Origin: an uncultured Reyranella sp.
GTDB lineage: Bacteria > Pseudomonadota > Alphaproteobacteria > Reyranellales > Reyranellaceae
Length of the DNA: 32,475 nt
Assembly: GCA_937915145.1 (NCBI GenBank)
Contig: CALDNT010000056.1
Coordinates: 1-32,475 of the forward strand
Direction of reading: 5' to 3'
How positions within the stretch are numbered: position 1 is the first letter of the stretch; each line of letters opens with the position of its first letter. The notes below the pieces were generated by a model. It searched no databases. It saw only the letters and a program-made list of their open reading frames with translations, and was not told the origin of the DNA. Below are positions 7,471-23,543 of the stretch, in pieces. Made by a program: the position numbers and the translations under genes.

Positions 7471-7492
7471 TTTAATTGGATTTTACCGCCTC

Positions 7493-7522
7493 TTGACAAA
7501 CATACCGACTGATCGGTATGTT
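7493..7522 (+). promoter_or_regulatory. tetR-type promoter with perfect palindromic operator
   Basis: A consensus -35 TTGACA (7493-7498) is followed after 18 bp by -10 TATGTT (7517-7522). A perfect palindrome with 10-bp arms AACATACCGA (7499-7508) and TCGGTATGTT (7513-7522) around four bases fills the spacer and the -10. Binding there would directly block RNA polymerase, so autorepression is the natural reading. The ATG at 7529 is only six bases past the -10 and lacks a ribosome site, so the transcript should begin on or next to the start codon. Confidence 0.88.
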
Positions 7523-7528
7523 CTTTTC

Positions 7529-8149: not shown

Positions 8150-8160
8150 GGAGACTCGTC

Positions 8161-8607: not shown

Positions 8608-8628
8608 CACGAGGCGGCGCGGCGCGTT

Positions 8629-9222
8629 CTAGCCGCCGAAGCGCACCGACTTCAGCACGGAACGCACCGCCGCCTGGCCTTCGGCGGCGATCGGCACGAC
8701 GCCGGGGCCCCAGACGAGCTGGACCTGGTACTGACACTCGCCGTCGTAGCCGGTGAAGAACTCGCCAGACAGCTTCGTGGGCGGCTGGGCACAGTCGGCC
8801 TGTATGTAGGTGCCGATCATGCCCATGCCACCGATCTCGGCAACGCCATGAACCCTTCCCTGGATCTTGCAGCCCGGCGAGGACCGCAGCTCCGAGCGCA
8901 GCACGCTGCGGAGAAAACCTTCGCGCTGCACCTCGTCAGCGACGACCGTCCGGGCCCACGCCATGCCGGATTTCTTGCCGGCCGGCATGTTCTGCAGCGC
9001 CGGCGAGGCCGGCCCGGCGACGAGCAGTATCGAGACCTCGGGCTTGCAGCCGAGGCAGCGAAGATGGGTCGTGGTCTTGAGGGCGGCGTCCGGCGACGTG
9101 GTACCGAGCGGCGCGGCGCTCCAGGTGGCATCGGGCGCCTGGGCGGTCGCGGTGCACTGCTGTGCCAGGGCGGCGCCTGCCCAGCCCAGCAGGGCGATCG
9201 ACACGGCGGTCACTTTCAGCAT
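8629..9222 (-). CDS. Secreted hypothetical protein with six cysteines
   Basis: 197 aa beginning with a clear Sec signal peptide (MLKVTAVSIALLGWAGAALAQ, cleavage near residue 20-21). The mature part has six cysteines: QQC, LRCLGC, PGC, ADC and GEC. An even number in an exported protein suggests disulfide bonds. I do not recognise a family. Mid-protein RVHGVAEIGGMGMIGTYIQADC and C-terminal GEFFTGYDGECQYQVQLVWG look like a compact beta-rich domain. GAGGAGGGATCC precedes the ATG, so the start is secure. It lies 75 bp downstream of the acyl-CoA dehydrogenase on the same strand, with a GC hairpin between, so linkage to that gene is uncertain. Confidence 0.8.
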   Translation of the reverse strand: MLKVTAVSIALLGWAGAALAQQCTATAQAPDATWSAAPLGTTSPDAALKTTTHLRCLGCKPEVSILLVAGPASPALQNMPAGKKSGMAWARTVVADEVQREGFLRSVLRSELRSSPGCKIQGRVHGVAEIGGMGMIGTYIQADCAQPPTKLSGEFFTGYDGECQYQVQLVWGPGVVPIAAEGQAAVRSVLKSVRFGG

Positions 9223-9270
9223 GGATCCCTCCTCGATGGCGTTGCTGACGCCATAGTGCCGGCCGCGGCC

Positions 9271-9286
9271 GCGGGCGCAAGCCCGC
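9271..9286 (-). terminator. Weak GC hairpin after the acyl-CoA dehydrogenase gene
   Basis: GCGGGC (9271-9276) and GCCCGC (9281-9286) form a 6-bp stem around a four-base loop. CCCGCC/GGCGGG at 9282-9295 gives a competing fold. No T-tract follows on the minus strand, so any termination would be Rho-assisted or partial. Confidence 0.3.
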
Positions 9287-9297
9287 CAAGGCGGGAA

Positions 9298-11121
9298 TCA
9301 GGCGACCAGCAGCGCCGCCGCGCGGTCGAGCGACACCGGGGTGTCGTCGAGCAGGGCAGCGATCGCCCCGTCTTCCCAGGCGCCACCGTCGGCGCTGAGC
9401 CTGGGTCGGTCCGACAACCGGTGTTCGAGGACGAAGCGCGCCATCAGCAGGCGCCGCGCATCGCCGCCGGCGGCGCCGAGACGGAAGCCCTCGTTGGCCA
9501 TCAGCACCATGGTGGCGGCATGATAGAGCCCGCTCGCTGCGACGCGACTGAAGCGCTCCTTCTCCGGGGCGTCGGCGACTTCCCCGGCGAAGCGGATCGC
9601 TTGCGCCAGCGTGCCTTCCAGCCGCGTGCGGAACTGGCCGGGCAGGCCGCGCGCTTCGGCCAGCCGTTCGCCGAGTTCCTCGCCCAAGGCGAGATGCGCG
9701 CGTTCCTTGCCGACGGCGCGCTGGATGACGTCGAGCGCATTGACGCTCGAGGTGCCGTCCCAGATCACGCCGAGATGGGCGTCGCGCACCAGGCGGGCGT
9801 TGGGCCAGTCCTCAATGTAGCCGTTGCCGCCGCGCGCCTCCATCGCCGCCGTGGCGACGGCGATATTGTCGCGCGAGGCGCGGTACTTGCAGACCGGCGT
9901 CATGACCCGCACCAGCTTCGCCGCGCGCGCGTCGTCGGGCCGCGCCATCGCCGTCGAGACCAGCATCAGCGCCGACAGTGCCTGCTCGGTCTTGATCGTC
10001 ATCTTGGCGAGCTGGCGGCGCATCAGCGGATATTCGACGACGCGGCGGCCGAAGGCATTGCGGTGGCGCGCCACCTGCATCGCCTCGTTGAGGCAGCGCC
10101 GCATCATGCCGGCGGCGCGCGTGAGGTGCGAAACGCGGCTGGGGTTCACCATCTCCAGCATCTGCTTCATGCCGCGGTCGAGCTGGCCCAGTGGCCAGGC
10201 GACGGCGCCGTCGAACACGATCTCGCCGCTCGGCATCGACTTACTGCCGAGCTTGTCCTTCAGCCGCACGATGCGATAGTCGTTGCGCGTGCCGTCGGGC
10301 AGGGTGCGCGGCATCAGGAACAGGCCGAGCCCGCGGCTGCCAGCCGTGGCGCCATCCGGCCGCGCCAGCAGCACCGCCACGTCGCCGTCGGCATTGGAGC
10401 AGAACCACTTCTCGCCATAAAGCCGCCAGTTCTGCCCGTCGTGCACCGCCTTCAGCTCGGCCGCGCCCGCGTCAGAGCCACCGATCTTCTCGGTCATGAA
10501 CTGCGCGCCGTAGAGCAGCCGGTTCATGTCCTGGGTCCACATGCGATCGAGGTAGCGTTCCTTGAGCTCGGGACTGCCGAAGCGCTTCAGCAAGTCGGAG
10601 GTGCAGTCGGTCAGGTTGACCGGGCAGAGCACGCCGAACTCGGCCTGGGAGAAGAGATAGAAGAAGGCCTGCTTGGCGATCTGCGGCATCGGCTGGTCCC
10701 AACCCAGCACGCCGGCGCGATGGGTCATTGCGTGCATGCCGAACAGGCCGAAGGCGATGTGGCGGATCTCGTCGTAGGCAGGATGGACCTCGATCCATTC
10801 CTCGTCGCGGCCGAAGCGGTCGCGCTGATGCAGCCTGGGCGGATGCTTGTCGGCTGCATCGGCGAGATCGTTCAGGCGCCCGCCCGCCAACGCGCCCAGC
10901 CGCTGAAGATGCGGCCCGAGATACGCCAGCAGCGGCGCTTCCATGTAGAGCGGCAGCAGGTCACGCAGGCTGCGGTCGAGGGCGTAGAAATCGAGGCCGC
11001 TGCAGTCGGGTGCGACATGGCGCGAGCGTTCGGCGACGGCACCACGGCCGGCGAGCGGCGAGAAGGCGGCGGAGGACACGTTGACGGCAGTGGCGGGCGG
11101 GATCGGCGCGAGATCGTTCAT
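9298..11121 (-). CDS. Acyl-CoA dehydrogenase, AidB-like
   Basis: 607 aa, longer than typical 380-aa acyl-CoA dehydrogenases and similar in plan to AidB-type or C-terminally extended members. Visible segments are an N-terminal HPAYDEIRHIAFGLFGMHAMTHRAG, the FAD/substrate segment FMTEKIGGSDAGAAELKAV, WFCSNADGDVAVLLARP, and RLKDKLGSKSMPSGEIVFDGA. The flavin-binding C-terminal helices contain EARGGNGYIEDWPNARLVRDAHLGVIWDGTSSVNALDVIQRAVG. The last 120 residues form an extra helical domain. The start at 11121 has GGAG ten bases upstream. It is divergent from a LysR regulator with 98 bp between starts and is likely its target. It oxidises an acyl-CoA or, as in AidB, may have a non-catabolic role; the substrate is not evident. 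Confidence 0.93.
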   Translation of the reverse strand: MNDLAPIPPATAVNVSSAAFSPLAGRGAVAERSRHVAPDCSGLDFYALDRSLRDLLPLYMEAPLLAYLGPHLQRLGALAGGRLNDLADAADKHPPRLHQRDRFGRDEEWIEVHPAYDEIRHIAFGLFGMHAMTHRAGVLGWDQPMPQIAKQAFFYLFSQAEFGVLCPVNLTDCTSDLLKRFGSPELKERYLDRMWTQDMNRLLYGAQFMTEKIGGSDAGAAELKAVHDGQNWRLYGEKWFCSNADGDVAVLLARPDGATAGSRGLGLFLMPRTLPDGTRNDYRIVRLKDKLGSKSMPSGEIVFDGAVAWPLGQLDRGMKQMLEMVNPSRVSHLTRAAGMMRRCLNEAMQVARHRNAFGRRVVEYPLMRRQLAKMTIKTEQALSALMLVSTAMARPDDARAAKLVRVMTPVCKYRASRDNIAVATAAMEARGGNGYIEDWPNARLVRDAHLGVIWDGTSSVNALDVIQRAVGKERAHLALGEELGERLAEARGLPGQFRTRLEGTLAQAIRFAGEVADAPEKERFSRVAASGLYHAATMVLMANEGFRLGAAGGDARRLLMARFVLEHRLSDRPRLSADGGAWEDGAIAALLDDTPVSLDRAAALLVA

Positions 11122-11200
11122 GGGGCGGCTCCGGCGAAAAATGAGGCCCTACCCTGCGTGGAGTTTTATACGCTGCCAATCGATATGATGGCCTCACGTT

Positions 11201-11215
11201 TTGAGTTAAACTCAA
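11201..11215 (+). promoter_or_regulatory. Palindromic site and -10 immediately before the LysR gene
   Basis: A perfect 15-bp palindrome, arms TTGAGTT and AACTCAA around one base, ends four bases before the ATG at 11220. TAAACT (11207-11212), a 4-of-6 match to the -10 consensus, lies inside it with seven bases to the ATG. There is no ribosome site, so a leaderless, autoregulated transcript is plausible. A further TATGAT at 11184-11189 could be an alternative -10. The divergent dehydrogenase gene shares this 98-bp region. Confidence 0.5.
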
Positions 11216-11219
11216 TTCT

Positions 11220-12095
11220 ATGACGACCCGCCGCCTGCCGCCGCTCCATGCCGTGCGCGCCTTCGAGGCGGCGGCGCGCCATCTCTCCGTCACCCGCGCG
11301 GCCGGTGAACTCGGTGTGACGCCGGGCGCGGTGAGCCGCCATGTACGCGGCCTGGAACGCGACCTTGCCGCCGTGCTGTTCGTGCGCCGCTCGACCGGGC
11401 TGGAGCTGACGCCGGTCGGGCGCGCGCTGGCCGACGGCACGCGCGAGGCGCTCGATCGCCTGGAGGAGGCCACCACCGGTGTGCGCCTGCGTCGGCCGCG
11501 GCGGCTATCGCTGGGCGTCTACGGTCACTTTCTGACGCGCGCGCTGCTGCCGGTACTGCCCCAGATGCGCCGCAGCCTGCCGGGCCTCGATGTCGATCTG
11601 CACGCCAGCACGAACCCGCTGGAAATGCTGCCCGGCCGCTTCGATGCGGTGATCGCCGTCGGCGGCACCGGCCGGCAATCCGGCCTGGTGGTGCGGCCGC
11701 TGATGCCGATTACCACCGTGGCGGTGATGGCACCCCGGCGACTGAAGAAGGGCGCGGTCGATTTCGCGCGAGTGCCGTTGTTGCACACGCGGCCGCGGCC
11801 CGACGACTGGCGGCGCTGGCTCGACCATGCCGGCCTCGGCGCAGTGCCGGTCCACGGCGGCTCGAGCTTCGAAAGCGCCAGCCAGACGCTGGAGGCCGCC
11901 GCCGCCGATCTCGGCGCCGCCATTGCCATCGAGTGCCTGCTGGCCCCGGACCTCGCGAGCGGTCGCCTCGCCATCGCCCATCCAGCGCGACGGCCGACGC
12001 GGCGCTCCTTCGTCCTGCAATACGAGACGCGGCTCGCCGCCGATCCGGCGCTCACCGCCTTCGCCGACTGGCTGTGCGAAAGGCTGGCCGCCTAG
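11220..12095 (+). CDS. LysR-family regulator, GcvA-like
   Basis: 291 aa. The N-terminal winged helix is RRLPPLHAVRAFEAAARHLSVTRAAGELGVTPGAVSRHVRGLERDLAAVLFVRR, whose PPL-x-A-x-RAFEAAAR-HLS opening is typical of the GcvA subgroup. The rest is a periplasmic-binding-protein-like co-inducer domain with FDAVIAVGG at its first lobe. It is divergent from the acyl-CoA dehydrogenase gene across 98 bp, the classical arrangement for control of the neighbouring gene. It probably also represses itself through the palindrome at 11201-11215. Its stop is ten bases from the convergent nitrilase-fusion stop. The co-inducer is unknown. Confidence 0.95.
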   Translation: MTTRRLPPLHAVRAFEAAARHLSVTRAAGELGVTPGAVSRHVRGLERDLAAVLFVRRSTGLELTPVGRALADGTREALDRLEEATTGVRLRRPRRLSLGVYGHFLTRALLPVLPQMRRSLPGLDVDLHASTNPLEMLPGRFDAVIAVGGTGRQSGLVVRPLMPITTVAVMAPRRLKKGAVDFARVPLLHTRPRPDDWRRWLDHAGLGAVPVHGGSSFESASQTLEAAAADLGAAIAIECLLAPDLASGRLAIAHPARRPTRRSFVLQYETRLAADPALTAFADWLCERLAA

Positions 12096-12104
12096 GAGCG
12101 CCTC

Positions 12105-13676
12105 TCAGGCGTCGGCGCGCCAGCGCACCGAGTAGAGATCGAAGCGCCGATCACGCAGCTGCTGGACGGCGCCAGCATTGCGGCCGGTCCACAGCGCCGA
12201 GAGCTGCAGGTCGACCACCGCCGTGGTCTCGCAGTTGGGTTCGAGTTCCAACGCCACGCCGTCGGGCGGAAACATCACGTCGCAGGGCGTGAGCACGCAG
12301 CTCTGCGCGTAGTGGGCGTCCAGATTGCCGACCCCGTCGAGATTGCCGACGGTGCCGGCGACGGCCACGAAGCACTGATTCTCGACGGCGCGGGCGGCCG
12401 CGCAATGGCGGACGCGCATGAAGGCTTGGCGGCTGTCGGTACAGGCAGGAACGAACAGAATCCGCGCACCCTGGTCGACGAGATGGCGGGTGACCTCGGG
12501 AAATTCCGCGTCGTAGCAGATGGCAACACCGATCGGGCCGCAGTCGGTCGGTATGGCGTCGAGGTCGGTGCCGCCGGCCACGCCCCAGTGCCGGCTTTCG
12601 TCGGGCGTCGGGTGCAGCTTCACTTGCTCATGCACGGCACCGTCGCGCAGATAGATGCGGCAGACGTTGCGCACCGCGCCGTCGGCGCCCAGCACGAGCT
12701 GCGAGCCGGCGACGATGTTGATGTTGCGGCGTACCGAGAGGCCGGCCATCAGCTCGTGCAGCGCCGGCCCGTGGTCGGTCATGCGCCGGACCGCCGCCTC
12801 GGCGTCGAGCTTCTCGCTTTCCATCGACAGGAGCTGCAGCGTGAAATGCTCGGGCAGCAACAGGAAGTCGGACGAATTGACCGCGGCGGTCTCGACGGCG
12901 AAACGCACCTGGGCGGCGAAGGCGGCGAAACTGGCGACCGGCTTCATGGCGTACTGGGCAAGCGCCACGCGGATCGTCTGGACGGCGGCGCTGCGGCGGC
13001 GCTTGGCCTCGAGGCGGGCGGAGTCGTCGAGTTGCGGGTTGCGCCACACCATCAGGGCGGCAAAGCCCGCCGATTCGGCGTCGCTGGGCAGGTAGTCCGG
13101 CAGCAGGCCGCGGACCTCGAAATCGTTGGCGATCTGGAAGGTGGCGACCGGGTCGCGGCGGCGGCCGGTCCTCACCTCCTCGAGATACTGCGCCGCCCCG
13201 CCACCCTGCTTCAGAAACCGGGCAAGTCGCGGCAGCCGCCCAGCGATCACGATGCCACGTAGCCCATGGGCCTGGCAGACGCGGCGGCGTTCGTCGTAGA
13301 GGCGCCGGCCGATGCGCATGCCACGCACGGAGGGATCGACGAAGGTCTCCATGCCATAGAGCCAGTCGCCGAGCGGCCGGTGCCGCGAGGCGAAGCCATC
13401 GCCGGTGATGCTGCGCCAGGTGTGGGGCGAGAGCGCGTCGGCCTCGTCGGCGATGAAGGTCGCGCAGTAGCCGACGACGCGGCCGTCGTAGACCGCCACG
13501 AACTGGCCTTCGGGGAAATTGTTCATCTGGCCCTGGAGTTGGTCAGCCGGATAAATCGCCATGGTAGGGTAAGCGTTGCGCATCACCGCCTGGATCTCCG
13601 CAATGTCGCGCGGCTCGGCCTGGCGCGTTATCAGCCGCACGGCCTGGCGGATCGACTTGCCCTTCTTCGCGGCCAT
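12105..13676 (-). CDS. Bifunctional GNAT acetyltransferase / carbon-nitrogen hydrolase
   Basis: A 523-aa fusion. Residues about 14-215 form a GNAT acetyltransferase-like domain with the acetyl-CoA loop region VDPSVRGMRIGRRLYDERR (113-131). Residues about 235-515 form a nitrilase-superfamily domain with the complete Glu-Lys-Cys triad: LLLPEHF (Glu276), VKLHPT (Lys353) and AICYDAEFPE (Cys387). The start is secure: GGGGGAGGA lies five bases before the ATG. This domain pairing is known as a recurrent bacterial family whose substrate is unsettled. It probably cleaves an amide and acylates or recognises an amine, but this is inference. It is divergent from the gamma-glutamyltranspeptidase-family gene (180 bp), which may be functionally linked through amide or glutamyl-amine turnover. 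Confidence 0.93.
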   Translation of the reverse strand: MAAKKGKSIRQAVRLITRQAEPRDIAEIQAVMRNAYPTMAIYPADQLQGQMNNFPEGQFVAVYDGRVVGYCATFIADEADALSPHTWRSITGDGFASRHRPLGDWLYGMETFVDPSVRGMRIGRRLYDERRRVCQAHGLRGIVIAGRLPRLARFLKQGGGAAQYLEEVRTGRRRDPVATFQIANDFEVRGLLPDYLPSDAESAGFAALMVWRNPQLDDSARLEAKRRRSAAVQTIRVALAQYAMKPVASFAAFAAQVRFAVETAAVNSSDFLLLPEHFTLQLLSMESEKLDAEAAVRRMTDHGPALHELMAGLSVRRNINIVAGSQLVLGADGAVRNVCRIYLRDGAVHEQVKLHPTPDESRHWGVAGGTDLDAIPTDCGPIGVAICYDAEFPEVTRHLVDQGARILFVPACTDSRQAFMRVRHCAAARAVENQCFVAVAGTVGNLDGVGNLDAHYAQSCVLTPCDVMFPPDGVALELEPNCETTAVVDLQLSALWTGRNAGAVQQLRDRRFDLYSVRWRADA

Positions 13677-13856
13677 CCATTCCTCCCCCGGTGGTTTCCG
13701 CCCGCCGCATCACGACGGGCCGTCCGGCGGAACCATCTAGACCACGCGCCGCCACGCACGCCAATTGCCTTCTGGGCCGGCCTTCCGGGGCGGCGTGGCC
13801 CGAGTGGCGCCCGGCCCTGTGCCGTGCCAGATTTTCCGGCAAAGGGGACCGGACAC

Positions 13857-15542
13857 ATGACCAAATCGAACTGGCGCGACCGCGCGGGAACGAAATTCAC
13901 CTGCGAGAAGCAGCCTGCGCAGGGCAAGAGCGGCATGGCCGTGTCGAACCATCCGCTGGCTTCGGCCGCCGGGCTGGAAATGCTGGCGGCAGGCGGCAAC
14001 GCGATCGATGCCGCCGTTGCCATGCAGTTTGCGCTCACCGTCGTCGAGCCGATGATGGTCGGGCTGGTGGGTGGCACGACCTGCCACATCCGCCTCGCCG
14101 ATGGTAGCCACCGCATCCTGGACGGCATGAGCGCGGTGCCGAAGTCGGGCCATCCCGACATGTACAAGCCCATCAGGGGCGCCGCGCCCGAGGTCTACGA
14201 CGTCGAGGGCCAGGAGAATCTCATGGGGCCGAAATCCGTCGCCGCCCCCGGGTCGCTGCGCGCCTGGTGCCTGGCCCTGGAGCGCTTCGGCACGATGGGC
14301 CTGGCCGACGTGATGCAGCCCGCGATCCGCCACGCCACCAGAGGCTTCGCCGTCACACCCTATCTGGCGGACTGCATCAAGGACGCCGCCCCCGACCTCG
14401 CGAAGGACAAGCTCGCCGCTGCCCGCCTCCTCCCCAACGGGATGCCGCTGAAAGCCGGCGCCAAGCTGGTAACGGGCGACTATGCCGAGGCGCTGACGCT
14501 GGTCTCGCAGCAGGGCGAGAAAGCGCTGCACGGCGGCGCCCTGGGCGATCTTCTGGTGGCGTGCATGGAGAAGAATGGCGGCTTCGTCGGCCGTGACGAT
14601 CTCACGCAATACAAAGTGGCGGAGCGCGCGCCGATCCGCGGCCGCTATCGCGGCTGGGAAATTTTGGGCCCGCCACCGCCCGCCGCCTCAGGCGTGCACA
14701 TCGCGCAGATGCTGAACATCCTCGAAGGCTACGACGTGGCGAAGCTGGGCTTCGGCACGGTCGACACGCTGCACCTGCTGGCCGAAGTGCTGAAGATCGC
14801 CTTCGCCGACCGCGCCGAGGCGAGCGGCGATCCGGACTTCGTGAAGGTGCCGGTCGAGCGCATCGTCAGCCGCGACTATGCCGACCAGCGCCGCAAGCTT
14901 TTAGACATCGCGCGGGCGACGAGATGGAGTGGCGGACTGCAGGCGGCCGAAGGCGCCGACACGACGCATCTCACCGTGGCCGACGGCAAGGGCAACGTGG
15001 TCAGTACCACGCAGACCATCAACAGCCTGTTCGGTGCGCGCTTCATCGTGCCGGGCACCGGCATGATCCCCAACAACTACATGAACAACTTCGACCCCAG
15101 GCGCGGCAACGCGCTCTCGATCGAGCCGGGCAAGCGGGTTACCACCTCGATGTCGCCGATGATGGCGATGAAGGACGGCAAGGTGCGCTATGCGCTGGGC
15201 CTGCCGGGCGGCCGGAAAATCTTCCCCTCGGCGCTGCAGGCGCTCGTCAACCTGATCGACCACGGCATGGAACTGCAGGAAGCGGTGGAGGCGCCGCGCG
15301 TGTGGACCGAGGGACCGGTGCTGGAAGTCGAGCACGGCATTCCGGCCCCCGTGCGCGAGGGCCTCGAGGCGCGTGGCCATACGCTCAAGATAATGCCGAC
15401 GGTGGCCGGCGGCATGAACGCCATCGAATTCCACGACGACGGCGGCATGACGGGTGCTGCCTGCTGGCGGGCCGACGGTGCGGCGGCGGCGATGGGCGGC
15501 GGGTTGGCGCGCGCGGGCGTGCGGTTCGAGTTGCCGGGGTAA
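13857..15542 (+). CDS. Gamma-glutamyltranspeptidase-family Ntn hydrolase
   Basis: 561 aa, the normal length. The large-subunit start GKSGMAVSNHPLASAAGLEMLAAGGNAIDAAVA is diagnostic. The autoprocessing site is ADTTHLTVADGKGNVVSTTQTIN, so Thr369 should become the N-terminal nucleophile of the small subunit (192-193 residues). GARFIVPGTGMIPNNYMNNF follows as in the family. No signal peptide is visible, whereas classical glutathione-degrading GGT is periplasmic. A cytoplasmic amidohydrolase role (for example on glutamyl-amides, oxamate-type or acyl-amide substrates) is therefore equally possible. AAAGGGGA lies nine bases before the ATG at 13857; the open frame upstream is antisense to the nitrilase fusion. 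It converges on the gene at 15565. Confidence 0.93.
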   Translation: MTKSNWRDRAGTKFTCEKQPAQGKSGMAVSNHPLASAAGLEMLAAGGNAIDAAVAMQFALTVVEPMMVGLVGGTTCHIRLADGSHRILDGMSAVPKSGHPDMYKPIRGAAPEVYDVEGQENLMGPKSVAAPGSLRAWCLALERFGTMGLADVMQPAIRHATRGFAVTPYLADCIKDAAPDLAKDKLAAARLLPNGMPLKAGAKLVTGDYAEALTLVSQQGEKALHGGALGDLLVACMEKNGGFVGRDDLTQYKVAERAPIRGRYRGWEILGPPPPAASGVHIAQMLNILEGYDVAKLGFGTVDTLHLLAEVLKIAFADRAEASGDPDFVKVPVERIVSRDYADQRRKLLDIARATRWSGGLQAAEGADTTHLTVADGKGNVVSTTQTINSLFGARFIVPGTGMIPNNYMNNFDPRRGNALSIEPGKRVTTSMSPMMAMKDGKVRYALGLPGGRKIFPSALQALVNLIDHGMELQEAVEAPRVWTEGPVLEVEHGIPAPVREGLEARGHTLKIMPTVAGGMNAIEFHDDGGMTGAACWRADGAAAAMGGGLARAGVRFELPG

Positions 15543-15544
15543 AG

Positions 15545-15559
15545 CTGCCGCAACGGCAG
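15545..15559. terminator. Hairpin between convergent genes
   Basis: CTGCCG (15545-15550) and CGGCAG (15554-15559) pair around CAA, two bases after the stop of the GGT-family gene and six before the convergent stop. There is no T-tract on either strand. Its position between two convergent stops supports a short bidirectional terminator. Confidence 0.45.
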
Positions 15560-15564
15560 GTACG

Positions 15565-16176
15565 TCAACCGCACAGCCAGATGTTCACCGCGAAGCGGCC
15601 GTCGGCGAACGCGCCGCCGGGACAGGAGACCGCTTCCACTTCATGCTGCGCGGAGGATGGGAAGACGAGCAGGCTGTCGTGCGTCGGCTCGATCTCGATC
15701 GATTGCCCGCCGCCCCGATCAAACAGCCGCAATCGGCCACCCGTGAAGCGGCACGGCTTGCGATGGAGATAGTAGACCATCGTCAGGCGGCGGCGGCCGC
15801 CGGGCGTGTATTCGTCGCCGGTGTAGGTGTCGGTATGCGGCCGGTAGAAGGCGCCGTCGCCGTGCACCACCATCTCGATCTGCGTGCTGTTGGCCGGTGT
15901 GTGCTGCATGTCGAACGCAGTTTCGAGACCTTCCTGAAGGGCCAGCGCCTTGCGGCGCAGCGGACCGGCGAAGGCGCCGAGGTCCTTCAGAACCGAGGAT
16001 TGCCGGACGACTGTGTCCAATCGGCCTGCCCCGTGATCGTCGAGCCTGGTCGGCGTGAAGCGCGCTTCGGCAGCCAGGCTGTAAGCCAGCAGGCGGGCCG
16101 CCTGCGTCGCGCCCAACCAATCGGGAAGGATGCGATGAGGCAGAAACCGCCCGGCGAGGAATGACGGCTCCGACAT
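15565..16176 (-). CDS. Prolyl-4-hydroxylase-like Fe(II)/2-oxoglutarate oxygenase
   Basis: 203 aa. The facial triad of the P4H/PKHD-type double-stranded beta helix is visible: RPHTDTY (His114, Asp116), SSAQHEVEAV (His178), and RFAVNIW with the 2-oxoglutarate-binding Arg194. GGRRRLTMVYYLHRKPCRFTGGRLRLF is the usual core between ligands. An AGAGGGG ribosome site precedes the ATG at 16176. It is transcribed in the same direction as the malonate decarboxylase operon and begins 123 bp after mdcB, but the gap contains a gpx remnant, so it is probably a separate unit. The substrate is a protein residue or small molecule and cannot be told from sequence. Confidence 0.9.
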   Translation of the reverse strand: MSEPSFLAGRFLPHRILPDWLGATQAARLLAYSLAAEARFTPTRLDDHGAGRLDTVVRQSSVLKDLGAFAGPLRRKALALQEGLETAFDMQHTPANSTQIEMVVHGDGAFYRPHTDTYTGDEYTPGGRRRLTMVYYLHRKPCRFTGGRLRLFDRGGGQSIEIEPTHDSLLVFPSSAQHEVEAVSCPGGAFADGRFAVNIWLCG

Positions 16177-16231
16177 GGCCCCTCTGTCGGCGTCTTCGTC
16201 GCGGCGGGCAAGAGCGAACTGGCGGCGGGGC

Positions 16232-16297
16232 GCCGACTACACGGGCAAGGTCGTGCTGACGGGCGTGCGGTCGAACGATTTCGGCCAAGGCTCCTGA
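16232..16297 (+). pseudogene. Decayed glutathione peroxidase fragment
   Basis: This plus-strand frame reads ADYTGKVVL then TGVRSNDFGQGS and a stop. The intact gpx at 21533-22105 has ADYKDKVVL and, 34 residues later, VVLGVPSNDFGGQEP. Bases 16261-16284 match 21799-21822 of gpx at 23 of 24 positions. The interior, including the catalytic Cys, is missing. The deletion could have run between the two similar GTGGT-CTG stretches of gpx. The frame can be extended back to an ATG at 16175, but those residues do not resemble Gpx. The fragment ends two bases before the mdcB stop and has the same orientation as intact gpx on the other side of the operon. Confidence 0.8.
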
Positions 16298-16298
16298 C

Positions 16299-17195
16299 CT
16301 AGCCGTCCGTCGCGCCGGGGTCACAGCAGCGCGAGACGAGGATCGTGCAGGCGAGCAGGTCGGCGCAGCCGCCGGCCGAGAGATTGCGCGCCACGAACTC
16401 GCGATGGAGCCGTTCCGCCGGCTCGCGCCAGCCTGAGCGCCGGCAGCCGCCGCCGGCGAGGAAGGCCGCCGCCGACGTGCGGACGAAGCGGCCGGCCGCG
16501 AGGCCGCCGCGATAAAGCACGGTGGTGTCGTCGACCGCCGCCATCAGGGCGAACAGCGTCTGCACGCTCGCGGCATTGGCGTCGAGCCCGGCCTGCAGCG
16601 CCGCGCGATAGGCCGGCACGCCGACCTCGAAGACGCCGGGAAAGCCCAGGGCCGCCTCGTGCCGGGCGCCATCGCGGCCGGTCGTGCGGCGGACGAGCGC
16701 GCCGTGGCTCGCCGAGGCCGCGCCGCGGGCGGCATGGGCCTGGAGCGCCGCGCCCCATTTGCGCATGAGGGTGGCGCGCACAGTTTCCGGAGAGACGGAC
16801 GAGGACGCGGCCTGCGTGCGCGCGACGGCGGCGACGACGAGGCCCAGCGAGAAGATGGCGCCGCGGTGCGTGTTGACGCCGCCGGTAACGGCCAGCATGC
16901 GGCGCTCGGCCGCGATGCCGAGCGGCACCAGGGCGGCCTCGAAGGAACAGCCGGCGCGGCCGGCGGCGGCAAGCGCGGCGAAGGGCCCGAGGAGCGAGTC
17001 GGCCGACCGGCACATCAGGGCGAAATCCATGTCGGCGTGCGCGCCGGAATCGACGGGGCTGACGAGGCCGGGCTTGGGCCAGGCCGCGAGCTCATCGCGC
17101 ATCGCCGTCACCGCCGCGCGACCCAGGCGCTCGTCGTGCGGGCAAATGGACTGGTCGACGGGCCGGTCGACAGCCAGGGCGGCCTCCGGGCTCAC
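16299..17195 (-). CDS. mdcB: MdcB: triphosphoribosyl-dephospho-CoA synthase
   Basis: 298 aa, CitG/MdcB family. It makes 2'-(5''-triphosphoribosyl)-3'-dephospho-CoA from ATP and dephospho-CoA, the precursor of the malonate decarboxylase prosthetic group. Family signatures are KPGLVSPVDSGAHADMDF (about 41-58), GGVNTHRGAIFSLGL (about 104-118), a GFPGVFEVGVPAYRAAL segment and VDDTTVLYRGG. The GTG start at 17195 overlaps the mdcG stop (GTGA), indicating translational coupling. It is the last gene of the mdcACDEGB operon. A plus-strand gpx fragment begins directly beyond the stop. No mdcH follows, whereas in several Gram-negative mdc clusters mdcH is the next gene. Confidence 0.95.
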   Translation of the reverse strand: MSPEAALAVDRPVDQSICPHDERLGRAAVTAMRDELAAWPKPGLVSPVDSGAHADMDFALMCRSADSLLGPFAALAAAGRAGCSFEAALVPLGIAAERRMLAVTGGVNTHRGAIFSLGLVVAAVARTQAASSSVSPETVRATLMRKWGAALQAHAARGAASASHGALVRRTTGRDGARHEAALGFPGVFEVGVPAYRAALQAGLDANAASVQTLFALMAAVDDTTVLYRGGLAAGRFVRTSAAAFLAGGGCRRSGWREPAERLHREFVARNLSAGGCADLLACTILVSRCCDPGATDG

Positions 17196-17827
17196 GGCCG
17201 AAGTTCCGTCCGTGGAACCAGGCGCAGCGCGTCGATCGATTTCAGCAGGACGTCAGCCTTGTCCTGGCGAACCTCGCGCCAGTGGACCTCGCCGAGGCCC
17301 TCGATGGAGAGCTCACCGTCGATCCTGAAGGGCAGCTCCGTTTCGGCGCGTTCGAGGAAGGCGGCCGCCCGCGCCGCCGCATCGGCGTCGGCGACGTCGA
17401 TCAGCACGTCGAGGTCGGACGAGTCGTGGACGTGGCGCTCGCCGGTCAGGGCCTGCCACATCCAGCTTCCGTAGATGCGGGTCTCGAGCCCCGCGCCGGC
17501 CGCCGCCTCGCCCAGGCGGGCGAAGGCCTCGGCATGCGGACGGGCGGCGGGACAGCGCGCGATCTCGGCGAGCAGCGGCGGACGGGCCCGTTCGGCGACG
17601 TGGCCCGGATCGGCATGGGCGGCGACGCGGCGCGGCCGCAACTCGGGATGGAGAGGATCCGTCGTGCAGAAGCCGAGGCCGATGCCATGTCCATCGTCGC
17701 GGCGGCGGGTGACGACGAAGGGGCGACGCGCTGCCTGCCAGTCCGCTGCGCGCCGGAGGTCGTCGCCGGTTCCCGCGCCGGGCGCCTGCGACAGCCAGAC
17801 CAGCGTATGGCGCCGCAGCGTCGTCAT
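17192..17827 (-). CDS. mdcG: MdcG: phosphoribosyl-dephospho-CoA transferase
   Basis: 211 aa, MdcG family of nucleotidyltransferase-like holo-ACP synthases. It transfers the phosphoribosyl-dephospho-CoA moiety from the MdcB product to the acyl carrier subunit MdcC. The nucleotidyltransferase motif is visible: RIYGSWMWQALTG (Gly120-Ser121) followed by SSDLDVLIDV with Asp138 and Asp140. Like other MdcG proteins it begins with RRHTLVWL. ATG at 17827 overlaps the mdcE stop by four bases (ATGA), and its own stop overlaps the mdcB start, so the three genes are translationally coupled. Confidence 0.95.
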   Translation of the reverse strand: MTTLRRHTLVWLSQAPGAGTGDDLRRAADWQAARRPFVVTRRRDDGHGIGLGFCTTDPLHPELRPRRVAAHADPGHVAERARPPLLAEIARCPAARPHAEAFARLGEAAAGAGLETRIYGSWMWQALTGERHVHDSSDLDVLIDVADADAAARAAAFLERAETELPFRIDGELSIEGLGEVHWREVRQDKADVLLKSIDALRLVPRTELRP

Positions 17828-18564
17828 CTCGCGGATTCGGCGAGAACCCTCTTGGCGATGTCGAGAGCGAGCCGGCGGCCGCCACGCTTCTTGCCGAGCG
17901 CGGCGCGATTGTCTTCCGTCGTGGCGGCGGCGATCGCGCGGGCAAGCCTGGCTGGCACGTCGTCTTTCGCCGACCAGACCTCCTCGACGCCGCCCAGCAG
18001 GGCGAACGGCTTCGCTCCGAACTCGAGCGAAGGCATGGTCTTCGAGAGCTTGCGCAACACCGGCACGGGGATCTTGGTGACGGCCGACATGGCTTCGACC
18101 GGCATCAGGCCCACGCTCGCACTGTCGAGCGCGTAGATGCGGTCGCCGAACATGCCGTAGCAGATGAAGGCGCCGCCCACGGCCTGGCCGGTCGCGATGG
18201 TGATCAGCTTGTGGCCCTTGCGGCGCGCCAGCTCGAGGCAGCTCAGCAGGTGGCCGAAGTAGCTGGCCAGCCCTAGCATCTCGGCGACGCGGTTGGGCTC
18301 CTGGCCGGCGCTGTCGACCAGCATGACGATCGGCGTTTTCGGGTGTTTCTCGATGCAGTCGATGACGTGGGCGGCGAGACGAAGTGCTGCAGCGTTGTCG
18401 ACATAGGTGCCGTCGCAGGTGCCGATGACGCAGACCGGGGCGCCGCCGGCCTGAGCATAGCCGGTCAGCACGGACTTCTCGACGGCGATACCCCGCGCGG
18501 ACGGACCGAACAGGCGGGCGAACAGGGTGCGGGAGGTCGACTTCTTCGGGGCGGGCTTCTTCAT
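17824..18564 (-). CDS. mdcE: MdcE: malonate decarboxylase gamma subunit
   Basis: 246 aa with a crotonase/carboxyltransferase-like fold. Together with MdcD it forms the decarboxylase that converts malonyl-S-ACP to acetyl-S-ACP and CO2. Segments supporting the call are VMLVDSAGQEPNRVAEMLGLASYFGHLLSCLELARRKGHKLITIATGQAVGGAFICYGMFGDRIYAL, with the oxyanion-type GG, and SVGLMPVEAMSAVTKIP. The N-terminal KKPAPKKSTSR tail is basic and may be disordered. A GGGAAG ribosome site overlaps the end of mdcD, four bases upstream on the same strand. The gene's end overlaps the mdcG start. Confidence 0.95.
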   Translation of the reverse strand: MKKPAPKKSTSRTLFARLFGPSARGIAVEKSVLTGYAQAGGAPVCVIGTCDGTYVDNAAALRLAAHVIDCIEKHPKTPIVMLVDSAGQEPNRVAEMLGLASYFGHLLSCLELARRKGHKLITIATGQAVGGAFICYGMFGDRIYALDSASVGLMPVEAMSAVTKIPVPVLRKLSKTMPSLEFGAKPFALLGGVEEVWSAKDDVPARLARAIAAATTEDNRAALGKKRGGRRLALDIAKRVLAESAR

Positions 18565-18568
18565 GATG

Positions 18569-19447
18569 CTACTTCCCGCGCCTGGTCATGGCGGCGAACT
18601 CAGGGCCCGAGGCGAGCGAGGCGGCCGCGACGTCGCGCACGCCCATGCCCTTCCACACGTCGTTCGGGTCAGTCGTTGCGCCGAAGCGCTTCAGGCGCTT
18701 CTCCAGCTCCTTCTGGCGCGCCTTGACGGACTTCAGCGTCACGGCGCTTGACCTGCCGAGCAGCTTCGCGACGGCGTCGCGGATCGCGCCGGCATCGTCG
18801 TGGACCAGTGCATCGGCGTCGCCCAGAAGGTACTTGGTCTTGCCGCCGCTGGTCTTCCAGACGAGGGCGCGGTTGGACGAGTCGTAGGCCTTCTTGCCCA
18901 TCCACTTCTCGATGACGATGGGCCCCGAGATGCCGAGGCGACCATGCTCGCTCATGACGCGGAAGTCGCAGCAGGTCGAGAGGATGCCCATGCCGCCGTA
19001 GGCGCCGATGTCGGAGCCGATGACGGCGATGGTCGCGACCTTTTTCGCGCGGCACTCGAAGATGGCACGCATGGTCTCGGCGATGGCGATCTCGCCAGCC
19101 GAGCCCTCGTGCAGGCGCACGCCGCCGCTCTCGATCAGCAGCACGCACGGCGCGCGATCGCGTGCCGCGGCCTTGAAGAGGCCGGTGAGCTTGGCACCGT
19201 GGATCTCGCCGACCGCGCCGCCGACGAACTGGCCGACCTGGGCGGCGATGTAGATCTTCTTCCCGCCGAGCTTCGCGCGGCCGATGACGACGCCGTCGTC
19301 GAACGACACCGGGATACCGAGCTGGGCGAGGTAGGGGCTGGTGATCCGCTCGGGTGGCGGCAGCAGCTCGCCGAACGAGCCGGGATCGACGAGGGCGGCG
19401 ATGCGCTGGCGCGCGGTCTGTTCATGGAAAAGAGGCCCGCGGGTCAT
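18569..19447 (-). CDS. mdcD: MdcD: malonate decarboxylase beta subunit
   Basis: 292 aa. This is the other half of the malonyl-S-ACP decarboxylase, homologous to acyl-CoA carboxyltransferase subunits but acting without biotin. Key segments are RQRIAALVDPGSFGELL, GVVIGRAKLGGKKIYIAAQVGQFVGGAVGEIHGAK, LLIESGGVRLHEGSAGEIAIAE and IGSDIGAYGGMGILSTCCDFRVMSEHGRLGISGP. The ATG at 19447 was chosen because it overlaps the mdcC stop (ATGA) and gives the family's usual N-terminus; the open frame upstream is a shadow of mdcC and mdcA. The C-terminal KSVKARQKELEKRLKRFGATTDPNDVWKGMG is also typical. Confidence 0.95.
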   Translation of the reverse strand: MTRGPLFHEQTARQRIAALVDPGSFGELLPPPERITSPYLAQLGIPVSFDDGVVIGRAKLGGKKIYIAAQVGQFVGGAVGEIHGAKLTGLFKAAARDRAPCVLLIESGGVRLHEGSAGEIAIAETMRAIFECRAKKVATIAVIGSDIGAYGGMGILSTCCDFRVMSEHGRLGISGPIVIEKWMGKKAYDSSNRALVWKTSGGKTKYLLGDADALVHDDAGAIRDAVAKLLGRSSAVTLKSVKARQKELEKRLKRFGATTDPNDVWKGMGVRDVAAASLASGPEFAAMTRRGK

Positions 19448-19767
19448 TTGTCGCCCTTGATGAGATGGTCGTAGGCCTGACGCAGGCGCAGATTGACGAG
19501 GACCGGCGGCGCGCCCTGATCGTTGATCGTCACCTTGGTGCCACCGGCCGGGTAGTTGTGCGCGAAGTCGGCGAGGGCTGCGAGCCACGACGCCTTGTAG
19601 CCGGGGATCGAGGTCTCGACGTGGCACTCCATCGTGCCCGAGGGACGGCCGCCGCGCTCGAGCAGCACTTCGAGGTTGCCGGAGCCCACGACGCCGGCCA
19701 GCGCCCACGGCTTGGCCGTCCTGGCCGCGAGCGGCTTCGACGGAAAGGCCTTTGCGAACTTCTCCAT
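19444..19767 (-). CDS. mdcC: MdcC: malonate decarboxylase acyl carrier protein (delta)
   Basis: 107 aa. This is the dedicated acyl carrier subunit; it bears the 2'-(5''-phosphoribosyl)-3'-dephospho-CoA group on which malonyl and acetyl residues are exchanged. The attachment motif is AGVVGSGNLEVLLE, with Ser29 as the modified residue. Typical later segments are ECHVETSIPGYKASWLAALADFAH and GGTKVTINDQGAPPVLVNLRLRQAYD. It starts 11 bp after mdcA and its stop overlaps the mdcD start, consistent with tight stoichiometric expression. Confidence 0.95.
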   Translation of the reverse strand: MEKFAKAFPSKPLAARTAKPWALAGVVGSGNLEVLLERGGRPSGTMECHVETSIPGYKASWLAALADFAHNYPAGGTKVTINDQGAPPVLVNLRLRQAYDHLIKGDK

Positions 19768-19778
19768 GTTGCCCAGTC

Positions 19779-21428
19779 CTACCAGTCGACGAATTGTGGG
19801 GGCGGATCGTAGAGACCGTTGGACCAGCGCACGAGGCCCTTGATGTCCTGCGCGGCGAGCAGGCTGCGGCTCGCCTCCGACGGGCGGACGCCGACATCCT
19901 CGGGTAACTGCACGATGCCGCGGCGGCGCAGCTCCTCGGTCTCGCGCTTCTTGCGCTTCAAGCCGACCGGCGTATAGCCCGCGACGGCGCGGATGGCGGC
20001 CTGGCGTTCGGCGATCGAGCGGCAGGCGGCGAGGTTGGCGATGCCTTCCTCGGTGACGATATGCGTGACGTCGTCGCCGTAGATCATCACCGGCGCCACG
20101 CCATGCAGCGCCTTGCGGATCGAAGGATCCTGGGCGTCGAGCCGCTCGACGAAAGTCGGCACGCGGCCGGACTGGAAGGTCTCGACCATCTGCACAACGA
20201 GCTTGCGGCCGGGCAACGCGCCCGGGCCGGGATTGGCTTCCGCGCCCACCTTCAGCCAGGCCTTCGACGGATGGCGGCGGCCGGTCGGCTGGCAGCCCAT
20301 GTTGGGCGCGCCGCCGAAGCCAGTGATGCGGTTCTTCGAGACCGTCGAGGAATTGCCGTTGATGTCGATCTGCAGCGAGGCGCCGATGAACATGTCGATG
20401 GCATAGTGGCCGGCGAGCTGGCCCATGGCGCGGTTGGAATGGAAGCTGCCGTCGCGGCCGGTGAAGAAGACGTCGGAATGGGCGGCCGTGTAGCGTTCCA
20501 TGCCGACCTCGCCACCCACGGCGAAGACGCTCTCGACCCAGCCCGATTCGATGGCGGGGATCATGGTGGGCAGCGGATTGACCATCCAGTACTTGCAGAT
20601 CTTGCCCTTGAGCCCGAGCCGCTCGCCGTAGGTCGGCAGCAGCAGCTCGATGGCGGCGGTGTTGAAGCCGACGCCGTGGTTCAGCGACTGGACCTCGTAC
20701 TTCTCGTAGATGCCGCGCAGCGCCACCATGGCCATCAGCACCTGCACGTCGGTAATGGCGGCGGGATCGCGCGTGAACAACGCCTGCAGATGCATCGGGT
20801 ACGGTGCCTCGACGACCAAATCGACCTGGTCGGCCGGGATGTCGATGCGCGGCAACCTGTCGACGATCTCGTTGACCTGCGCGAACACGATGCCGTCGGA
20901 GAACGCCGTCGGCTCGACGATGGCCGGGGTATCCTCGGTGTTGGCGGCGAGGAACAGGTTGCCCTTGCGGTCGGCCTGGGCGGCGGCGATCAGCGCGACG
21001 CGTGGCGTCAGATCCATGTAGTAGCGGGCGTAGAGCTCATTGTAGGTGTGGATGGCGCCGACCGGGAACTTTTTGGCCTTCACCAGGTCCGCCACGGCGG
21101 TACCCTGCGGACCCGCGTAACAGAAGTCGACCTGGCGGATCATGCCCTTCTGGAAGAGCTGGATGTGGGCGGGCAGCGTGATGCAGGACATCACGAGATG
21201 GATGTCGTGCAGGTCCTTCCTATTGAGCGTGGCGAGCTGATTCGCAAGGAAATCGGCCTGCTTCTGGTTGTCGCCCTCGAGGCAGAGGATGTCACCGGAT
21301 TCGATGATGCGCTTGAGAACTTGGGGCACATTGTTGGGGGAAACGAACTTGCCCCGAGCGAGCTTGCCGACTCTTTCCAGGCGCTGCGCCTTGTTCTGGC
21401 GGCGCAGGGCGGATTTTGCAGTATTCAT
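19779..21428 (-). CDS. mdcA: MdcA: malonate decarboxylase alpha subunit (acetyl-ACP:malonate ACP transferase)
   Basis: 549 aa, normal for MdcA. It exchanges acetyl for malonyl on the carrier protein and resembles CoA transferases. Supporting segments are RGKFVSPNNVPQVLKRIIESGDILCLEGDNQKQADFLA near the N-terminus, the central GGAPNMGCQPTGRRHPSKAWLKVG, and YGDDVTHIVTEEGIANL. I chose the ATG at 21428 because AAAGGA lies four bases upstream and MNTAKSALRRQNKAQR fits; the frame extends 18 codons further with no support. It heads mdcACDEGB, divergent from gpx across 104 bp. That gap holds a loose GACAT-N6-ATGTC symmetry (21478-21493) as a possible regulator site. No mdcR-type regulator is adjacent. 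Confidence 0.96.
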   Translation of the reverse strand: MNTAKSALRRQNKAQRLERVGKLARGKFVSPNNVPQVLKRIIESGDILCLEGDNQKQADFLANQLATLNRKDLHDIHLVMSCITLPAHIQLFQKGMIRQVDFCYAGPQGTAVADLVKAKKFPVGAIHTYNELYARYYMDLTPRVALIAAAQADRKGNLFLAANTEDTPAIVEPTAFSDGIVFAQVNEIVDRLPRIDIPADQVDLVVEAPYPMHLQALFTRDPAAITDVQVLMAMVALRGIYEKYEVQSLNHGVGFNTAAIELLLPTYGERLGLKGKICKYWMVNPLPTMIPAIESGWVESVFAVGGEVGMERYTAAHSDVFFTGRDGSFHSNRAMGQLAGHYAIDMFIGASLQIDINGNSSTVSKNRITGFGGAPNMGCQPTGRRHPSKAWLKVGAEANPGPGALPGRKLVVQMVETFQSGRVPTFVERLDAQDPSIRKALHGVAPVMIYGDDVTHIVTEEGIANLAACRSIAERQAAIRAVAGYTPVGLKRKKRETEELRRRGIVQLPEDVGVRPSEASRSLLAAQDIKGLVRWSNGLYDPPPQFVDW

Positions 21429-21532
21429 GATTCCTTTCTCGCGCATGACGTCGTGGGGGTCAATTGCCCGAGGGGGTGACATTTTGGGATGTCGTTGTGA
21501 CCGACCGGCCCGTTCGTCTGTAAAGATGAAAC

Positions 21533-22105
21533 ATGAAAATCATCCGCATGCTCGCCTTCGCCGCCATCGGCGCCCTGCTCTCGGCCGTGAGCACCGCCTG
21601 GGCGCAGGCCGGGCGGCAGCCGGTCGACTGGTCAGCGGTGTCACTCGACGCGATCGGCGGTGGACCACTGCCGACCGCCGACTACAAAGACAAGGTGGTT
21701 CTGCTGGTGAACACGGCGTCGCAGTGCGGCTTCACCGGCCAGTACAAGGGGCTGGAGGCGCTGTGGCGCCGCTACAGGGATCAAGGTCTCGTGGTGCTGG
21801 GCGTGCCGTCGAACGATTTCGGCGGCCAGGAACCCGCCACGGCGGAGGAGATCAAGCGCTTCTGCGAGGCGAGCTTCGACATCACCTTTCCGCTCGCCGA
21901 CAAGCAGGTCGTGAGCGGGCCCAATGCGCACCCACTCTACAGATGGGCCGCGGCGCAGACCGGTGCCTTGGGCACGCCGTCGTGGAACTTCCACAAGATC
22001 CTGATTGGCCGCGACGGCTGCATCGTCGACTGGTACTCGGCCGCGGGCGGCATGGGACCCAAGCTCGATCGCGCCATCGAGGCGGCGCTGGCGGCGAAGG
22101 AATAG
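21533..22105 (+). CDS. Exported glutathione peroxidase family protein
   Basis: 190 aa. A Sec signal peptide (MKIIRMLAFAAIGALLSAVSTAWAQA) is followed by a thioredoxin-fold peroxidase domain of about 160 aa. The catalytic tetrad is visible: NTASQCGFTGQY (Cys), GVPSNDFGGQEP (Gln and upstream Asn) and TPSWNFHKILIGRDG (Trp, Asn). The nucleophile is cysteine, not selenocysteine. It would reduce hydroperoxides in the periplasm, probably with thioredoxin-like donors. It is divergent from mdcA. A decayed partial copy lies at 16232-16297 on the far side of the mdc operon. A clear ribosome site is lacking; TAAAGA is six bases before the ATG and is a poor -10. An internal ATG five codons later is an alternative start. 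Confidence 0.93.
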   Translation: MKIIRMLAFAAIGALLSAVSTAWAQAGRQPVDWSAVSLDAIGGGPLPTADYKDKVVLLVNTASQCGFTGQYKGLEALWRRYRDQGLVVLGVPSNDFGGQEPATAEEIKRFCEASFDITFPLADKQVVSGPNAHPLYRWAAAQTGALGTPSWNFHKILIGRDGCIVDWYSAAGGMGPKLDRAIEAALAAKE

Positions 22106-22217
22106 ACGGCGACTGCAGAGCAGGCGGCGGCACGGACAGGAACAACGGACGGTATCCGGCCGGAGTTCACAGATGAACCCACCGGGAGTTGGACTGAGGT
22201 GCGCCCGCGACTACACT

Positions 22218-22250
22218 CCTGGATGCGGGATCATCTCTCCCGCGTCCAGG
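22218..22250 (+). promoter_or_regulatory. Long hairpin touching the adenylate cyclase ribosome site
   Basis: Arms 22218-22230 (CCTGGATGCGGGA) and 22238-22250 (TCCCGCGTCCAGG) form a 13-pair stem, with one G-U pair, around a 7-base loop. The last three bases of the stem are the AGG that opens the AGGAAGGG ribosome site of the gene starting at 22260. The hairpin could terminate gpx transcription (no T-tract follows) or limit translation of the cyclase. Confidence 0.65.
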
Positions 22251-22259
22251 AAGGGTGGC

Positions 22260-23543
22260 ATGACGGCAGAGAAGCCCTATCCAGTTCCGGACAACGAGGC
22301 AGAACGCAACCAGGCCCTGCGTTCGTACAAGGTCATGGACTCGCCGCCGGAGATTGCCTTTTCGGAGATCGGCGAGCTGGCGGCGCAGATCTGCGAGTGC
22401 CCGGTTTCCTATGTGTCGTTCATTGAGGAAGACCGGTTCTGGTTCAAGGCCAAGTACGGCCTGCCGGACGACTTCAAGGGCTGCCCCCGCGAGATCGCCT
22501 TCTGCTCGATCACGGTGTGCGGCTCGGAGATTGTGCTGGCGCCCGACCTTGCGACCGACGAGCGCTATCGCGACTTCCCTTTCGTAGTCAACGACCCTCA
22601 CTTTCGCTTCTACTGCGCGATGCCGCTGATCACGCCGGAAGGCTACGCGATCGGCACCATCTGCGTCATGGACTTCAAGCCGCAGAACCTGTCGATCGAG
22701 AAGCAGGAGACGCTGCGGCGGCTGGCCCAGCAGCTCGTCAGCCTGCTCGAGCATCGCCGCCGCATGATCGAGCTCGACGAGACGATGCGCGAGCTCGACA
22801 AGGCGCATGTGGCACTGGCTCGGGAGAAGGCGCAGGCCGAGGAGTTGCTGAACCGCGTCCTGCCGGTCCGCATCGCCGACGAACTCAAGGCAAATGGCAA
22901 GGTTGAGCCGCGCTTCCATCCGTCCGCCACGATCCTGTTTGCTGACGTCAAGGGATTCACCAGCTTCACCGAGCGCGCCGAGCCGGCCATGTTGATCGGG
23001 ATGCTCGACCGCTACTTCGCCGCTTTCGACGAGGCCGTGGCGCGTCACAAGGTCGAGAAGCTGAAGACGATCGGCGACGCCTATGTCGCCGTCGCCGGCG
23101 TGCCGGAGCTGGACCGCCTGCACGTGCTGCACGCCTGTCTCGCCGCCCTGGAGATGCTCGAAGCCACCGCAAAAATCCGGGCCGAGCGCGAAAGGCTTCG
23201 CCTGCCATTCTTCGAACTGCGCATCGGCATCCATACCGGCCCTCTGATTGCCGGCGTGGTCGGCCGCCAGCGCTTCACCTACGACATCTGGGGCGATGCC
23301 GTGAACGTCGCGGCACTCATGGAAAGCAACGGCGAGCCGGGACGGATCAACGTCTCCGAGCAGGTCTATCACTATGTGAAGCAGTACTTCGAGTTCGCCG
23401 GGCGCGGCTCGGTCGAGGTCAAGAACAAGGCCGCCCTAGGCATGTATTTTCTAGAACGGCTGAAGCCCGACTTTGCCATGGATGCGGCAGGCCGGCGCCC
23501 CTCCGACCGTCTGATCGCCCTGGTCAATCCGCTGCCGGGCTGA
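22260..23543 (+). CDS. GAF-domain class III adenylate cyclase
   Basis: 427 aa. Residues 11-165 are a GAF sensor domain (DNEAERNQALRSYKVMDSPPE opening, GTICVMDFKPQNLS close), 165-205 a helical linker, and 220-400 a class III cyclase domain. Metal-binding aspartates are Asp229 (LFADVKGFTSF) and Asp273 (TIGDAY). The adenine-selecting pair is Lys269 and Asp342 (YDIWGD), so ATP rather than GTP is expected. Asn349 is present, but the transition-state Arg of the N-x-x-x-R motif is Leu353 (VNVAALMES). The ATG at 22260 follows AGGAAGGG. The GAF domain contains several cysteines and might sense a ligand or redox state. It follows gpx by 154 bp with a strong hairpin before its ribosome site. Confidence 0.93.
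   Translation: MTAEKPYPVPDNEAERNQALRSYKVMDSPPEIAFSEIGELAAQICECPVSYVSFIEEDRFWFKAKYGLPDDFKGCPREIAFCSITVCGSEIVLAPDLATDERYRDFPFVVNDPHFRFYCAMPLITPEGYAIGTICVMDFKPQNLSIEKQETLRRLAQQLVSLLEHRRRMIELDETMRELDKAHVALAREKAQAEELLNRVLPVRIADELKANGKVEPRFHPSATILFADVKGFTSFTERAEPAMLIGMLDRYFAAFDEAVARHKVEKLKTIGDAYVAVAGVPELDRLHVLHACLAALEMLEATAKIRAERERLRLPFFELRIGIHTGPLIAGVVGRQRFTYDIWGDAVNVAALMESNGEPGRINVSEQVYHYVKQYFEFAGRGSVEVKNKAALGMYFLERLKPDFAMDAAGRRPSDRLIALVNPLPG

Follow-up and report, generated by a model that had tools for sequence, protein, structure and literature searches.

The window, a stretch of 32,475 nucleotides from an uncultured Reyranella sp. (assembly GCA_937915145.1, contig CALDNT010000056.1), carries a malonate decarboxylase (mdc) operon between a gene for a 2OG-Fe(II) oxygenase and an intact glutathione peroxidase gene (gpx); in addition, a short gpx-like sequence lies at the operon end distant from gpx, as the earlier sequence-only reading of this DNA had proposed (Table). 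Using Pfam and NCBIfam models, we recognized mdcA, mdcB, mdcC, mdcD, mdcE, and mdcG, i.e., the genes for all four subunits together with mdcB and mdcG, as in biotin-independent malonate decarboxylase operons. For mdcH, the model gave no match over its cut-off in the genome of the window and two matches below it, elsewhere in the genome; 10 of 14 control genomes likewise stayed below the cut-off. Based on a comparison of its C terminus with those of nine relatives, mdcB is complete to its natural stop, and mdcA occurs only once in the genome, at the site described here. None of the ORFs read inside the insert encodes a regulator or transporter, and a scan for promoters and terminators found 0 and 2, respectively, with 0.2 and 2.3 expected, i.e., no excess over shuffled sequences.

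Table. Features of the mdc insert, its joints and its neighbors, in window positions
Feature	Position	Strand	Basis
2OG-Fe(II) oxygenase gene, left neighbor of insert	15565..16176	-	Pfam PF13640, E 5.7e-19
Native oxygenase-gpx spacer to left joint	16177..16236		Alignment with G082 continuous to 16236
gpx piece 1 (ADYTGKVVL codons)	16231..16258	+	27/28 to G075 gpx
gpx piece 2 (GVRSNDFG codons, Pro to Arg)	16261..16284	+	23/24 to own gpx
mdcB, triphosphoribosyl-dephospho-CoA synthase	16299..17195	-	TIGR03132 over cut-off
mdcG	17192..17827	-	TIGR03135 over cut-off
mdcE, gamma subunit	17824..18564	-	PF06833 over gathering score; TIGR03134 below cut-off
mdcD, beta subunit	18569..19450	-	TIGR03133 over cut-off
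mdcC, delta subunit (acyl carrier)	19444..19767	-	PF06857 over gathering score; TIGR03130 just below cut-off
mdcA, alpha subunit	19779..21428	-	TIGR01110 over cut-off
Right-joint zone	21472..21530		mdcA-upstream similarity to relatives ends ~21471; G082 similarity from 21531
Intact gpx	21533..22105	+	PF00255; export-type N-terminal leader, judged by eye

The site without an operon is found in relatives. In 9 of 17 oxygenase loci examined (G029, G031, G023, G082, G085, G075, G080, G062, and G088), the oxygenase gene lies directly beside an intact gpx, and the two genes are head to head (divergent) in all nine, with 79-134 bp between the match ends; mdc is present at the oxygenase locus in 0 of the 17. 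Relatives with gpx and no mdc at this locus, which the sequence-only reading had recommended looking for, thus exist. Five of the nine (G029, G023, G082, G075, and G062) carry mdcA elsewhere, while the mdcA search gave no match in the remaining four. Positions 9056-16236 and 21531-23044 of the window align to one contig of G082, the closest relative, with 41 bp between them. The insert begins at 16237, ends at a point within 21471-21530, and takes the place of no more than 41 bp of G082-type spacer. The spacer alignment with G029 and G031 also ends at 16236 and that with G023 at 16225. The right joint is placed to about 60 bp: G082 aligns poorly over the last 33 bp ahead of gpx, and the right flank possibly starts near 21500 relative to G029 and G031, with weak similarity. 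In the eight loci with no adjacent gpx, a search for gpx fragments beside the oxygenase gene gave weak matches, none of them convincing (the best blastn match, at E 2.4e-4, lay on the opposite strand, and the best tblastn match had E 0.005; G064 covered by 1.2 kb). The joint itself was found in the window alone as a full-length match in DNA searches with 16150-16320 in 65 genomes of the genus and with 16150-16350 in 61 genomes; the arrangement is known from one metagenome-type assembly.

The flanks and the operon differ in their kinship. The flanks are 91.5% (7214 bp) and 90.4% (1548 bp) identical to G082, and the intact gpx of the window is sister to the G082 gpx (support 0.989); the mdc operon is only 78.2% (4574 bp) and 82.1% (592 bp) identical to that of G082. 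In a tree of 32 operons based on concatenated proteins, G082 mdc groups with those of G075, G029, G019, G018, G081, G062, and G023 with a support of 1.0, and the window mdc falls outside this clade with no supported partner. The closest operon among the loci compared is that of G069 at 83.6%, arguing that the donor is absent from our sample; a further search for mdcB covered 76 genomes of the order as well as GTDB contigs, the latter yielding 16 loci, possibly with the window's own record left out. Two of the genes, mdcA and mdcD, discriminate weakly when taken alone. Over its final 352 residues, MdcA shares 97% identity with G082, the top value in that comparison; the DNA identity of 89.3% is unexceptional. 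The second-best match of mdcD is G075, a member of the native clade. At the DNA level, mdcA hardly separates the genomes; the conflict with the backbone is carried by the other mdc genes. To judge from these trees and alignments, the mdc operon in the window is not the copy inherited with this lineage, for which the kinship with G082 and the backbone were judged from two loci. Within the flanks, the oxygenase gene is 90.6% identical to that of G029 and 90.0% to that of G082; at the protein level, oxygenase and gpx share 89-90% identity with G082, compared with 96-98% for the neighboring proteins. Together, these values make an exchange over a wider tract possible.

Where the inherited operon would have been is indicated by contig C225 of the window's genome (G000), on which the genes that flank mdc in G082 are found with 91.6% (3385 bp) and 92.5% (5682 bp) identity and no mdc operon between them. 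In place of mdc, about 2.7 kb (about 6473-9154, L159) is present, in which an M23-type peptidase gene lies among other ORFs; this replacement has no nucleotide match among the loci compared, the overlapping locus of the same contig excepted. On the mdcB side, homology to G082 stops about 50 bp beyond the mdcB stop, at a point 7 bp past a tRNA-Pro(cgg) gene; on the mdcA side, it breaks off 5 bp short of the start codon. Both flanks are kept around mdc in G029 and G018 and one each in G019 and G075, where contigs end, supporting that this is probably the older location of mdc in the clade. By this comparison, the older mdc site of the lineage, beside the tRNA-Pro gene, has evidently lost its operon.

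The gpx-like sequence consists of two pieces. Piece 2 is identical to the gpx of the window (21799-21822) at 23 of 24 positions, the same count as reported previously, and piece 1, which had been described as resembling upstream gpx codons, matches 21676-21703 at 23 of 28. Together, the pieces score 46/52 against the window's own gpx and up to 50/52 against the gpx of relatives. A distance of 123 nt separates the two pieces in each of the 21 gpx genes of this family that were measured, i.e., the window's own and those of 20 relatives; here, they are separated by 30 nt. The sequence therefore lacks 93 nt (31 codons), in frame and including the catalytic-Cys region, in agreement with the suggestion that two gpx segments are joined without this region. 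We also considered a contiguous alignment to gpx 21757-21823 (81%); however, the two-piece reading fits the relatives better (27/28 + 23/24 for G075). Piece 2 carries a Pro-to-Arg change in a motif that is unchanged among the gpx compared. The sequence-only reading had the remnant end two bases before the mdcB stop; rather, the clear match stops at 16284-16285, about 14 bp before it, and of the remnant only its stop codon (16295-16297) comes within two bases of the mdcB stop (16299-16301).

The sequence-only reading had named a match no better than to random GC-rich coding DNA as a reason to discard it. In 998,600 bases of control DNA (both strands of 35 loci and two window stretches), the best pairs reached 34/52, 37/52, and 36/52 with the pieces from the window, G075, and G082, respectively, compared with 46/52, 50/52, and 49/52 for the remnant. 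For the 24-mer of piece 2 alone, the best match in the control DNA was 19/24. In a local alignment across 630 segments, the two segments containing the remnant scored 35, ahead of a next-best score of 20, and the separation was smaller when long gaps were made cheaper (38.7 versus 30.5). These paired-piece and local-alignment controls rule out a chance match as the source, and the gpx-like scrap at 16231-16284, about 55 bases long, is real.

Which gpx the scrap resembles is a narrower matter. Piece 2 matches four gpx paralogues with 47-50% protein identity at 22-23 of 24 positions, and because it is nearly invariant across gpx families it indicates a gpx without indicating which, leaving only piece 1 informative on the source. 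Piece 1 is identical at 27 of 28 positions to the gpx of G075, at 26 to that of G082, and at 23 to the window's own. Piece 1 alone also fits other genes (93-96% over 27-28 bases), and three translated non-gpx matches have what we take, from the motif, to be a TlpA-type thioredoxin look; its assignment to gpx is based on order, frame, and place. Five genomes hold the best mdc matches (G069, G020, G079, G021, and G086), and gpx was compared in four of them, G069, G079, G021, and G086. These gpx match the remnant at 44-48 of 52 positions, slightly below G075 (50) and G082 (49), and piece 1 at 23 (G069), 22 (G079), 23 (G021), and 25 (G086) of 28; the gpx of G034, like that of G086, reaches 48/52, near the value for G082. 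The best fits among the gpx compared, G075 and G082, are the two nearest in the gpx tree; given the piece 1 scores of the other genomes, the preference for the native clade, which rests on 28 bases, is slight. The second gpx of the genome (contig C85) was rejected as a source with only 15/28 + 22/24.

The best explanation, and on balance a probable one, is that a divergent mdc operon was inserted, that gpx filler was added at one joint, and that the older mdc was lost. According to this model, an mdcBGEDCA operon, complete in itself, would have come from a different Reyranella lineage and inserted into the oxygenase-gpx spacer, with no site-specific machinery in evidence. The two gpx pieces (28 + 24 nt or slightly more) would most likely be filler copied from the neighboring native gpx by template switching while ends were being joined, and the original operon would have been lost from its other place. 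At the left joint, the order is native spacer, 54-60 nt of gpx-derived mosaic, and mdc operon, which one insertion with filler explains in few steps. Piece 1 overlaps the end of the native spacer alignment by about 6 bp, which is compatible with microhomology and proves nothing. From the arrangement, we infer that a single event took place, how the filler formed, in which order loss and gain occurred, and that the new operon works. The sequence-only reading had suggested that the operon came in together with or next to a gpx duplication, or that recombination between gpx copies rearranged the neighborhood. Arrival of the operon is borne out by the empty sites in relatives; arrival through recombination between gpx copies is not supported, and the native left flank up to 16236 and the grouping of gpx with G082 fit one insertion into the spacer rather than an exchange within gpx. 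Long identical repeats at both ends, as expected for homologous recombination between gpx copies, are absent. Looping-out of the operon between direct copies is unlikely because the longest exact run shared by the remnant and gpx is 16 bp; the product would, moreover, lack the first half of gpx.

Alternatively, the scrap could be the last trace of a once complete second gpx, the left copy having decayed by deletions after a duplication or after a circle with mdc and gpx had integrated at gpx by a single crossover. We consider this possible, yet clearly the lesser candidate. The direct orientation, the preserved gpx order and frame, and the native spacer immediately in front would all be expected, and a Pro-to-Arg change in an otherwise unchanged motif would suit a dead copy. 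However, at least three deletions would be needed, the native sequences on the left and right together make up nearly the whole empty site (41 bp apart in G082), and a full second gpx beside the oxygenase gene was found in none of the 17 loci examined.

That the gpx piece came with the operon, from a donor with gpx just after mdcB, seems unlikely to us. The remnant directly adjoins mdcB, gpx neighborhoods are fluid within the genus, and the 48/52 fit of the G086 gpx comes from a genome with one of the five best mdc matches; the gpx of G075 and G082, however, fit slightly better, and no gpx match was found beside mdc in 35 other mdc loci (thresholds E 1e-10 and 1e-8; flanks bounded by contig ends). 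The earlier suggestion that the operon arrived with gpx is possible and gains no positive support from these loci. An assembly chimera might be suspected in an assembly of 317 contigs; however, both flanks return to one locus, at which G082 has them 41 bp from each other, mdcA is single in the genome, and the older site lacks the operon, making this source of the arrangement exceedingly improbable.

Xenologous gene displacement denotes the loss of a native copy and the gain of a divergent copy elsewhere. The older site devoid of mdc, the divergent mdc at the new site, and the conflict between the mdc tree and the backbone (two loci) all resemble such a displacement; here, in contrast, a whole six-gene operon moved, and one joint lies at the end of the operon. 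Templated filler insertions are known from illegitimate joints, and the joint described here, with its short stretches similar to neighboring sequence, resembles them; unlike exact copies, the pieces are diverged (46/52 to the window's gpx). Altogether, the locus represents a known kind of operon displacement that left a scar, and it looks like ordinary bacterial gene acquisition, not a new system. Its value lies in documenting an operon swap fairly completely, before and after, through the empty site, the emptied older site, the divergent operon, and the scar, and in the caution that a neighboring gene can have a short "remnant" nearby without any recombination between gene copies. A literature search for Reyranella together with malonate listed a single paper, which, judged by its title, concerns Acetobacteraceae.

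The insertion may have changed the expression of the oxygenase gene and gpx: mdc now shares a strand with the oxygenase gene at a distance of about 120 bp, and a divergent spacer of about 104 bp lies between mdcA and gpx. More broadly, mdc occupies several different neighborhoods in the genus (loci L057-L148). With the window included, its flanks fall into 9 clusters for mdcA and 12 for mdcB, counts that are too high because they depend on the BLAST threshold and contig ends; for instance, mdcB-side clustering splits G018 from G082 despite the same site by flank alignment. We speculate that Reyranella mdc could move as an operon-sized cassette, with replication-based cutting at operon ends leaving short templated scraps behind. 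Such cutting would explain the joints at the older and the new site alike; we regard this reading as quite doubtful.

Several observations concern the same genes in other settings. Adjoining gpx in both the window and G082 is a gene for a protein with a GAF and an adenylate/guanylate cyclase domain (22260-23543 in the window), which has no match between gpx and the next shared gene in G029 and G031. In G017 (L066), mdcA and mdcG are apparently broken into several frames, possibly reflecting a decaying or poorly assembled operon. In G021 (L184), the sequence before gpx resembles, by eye, the end of a gamma-glutamyltranspeptidase gene, another arrangement of the same neighbors.
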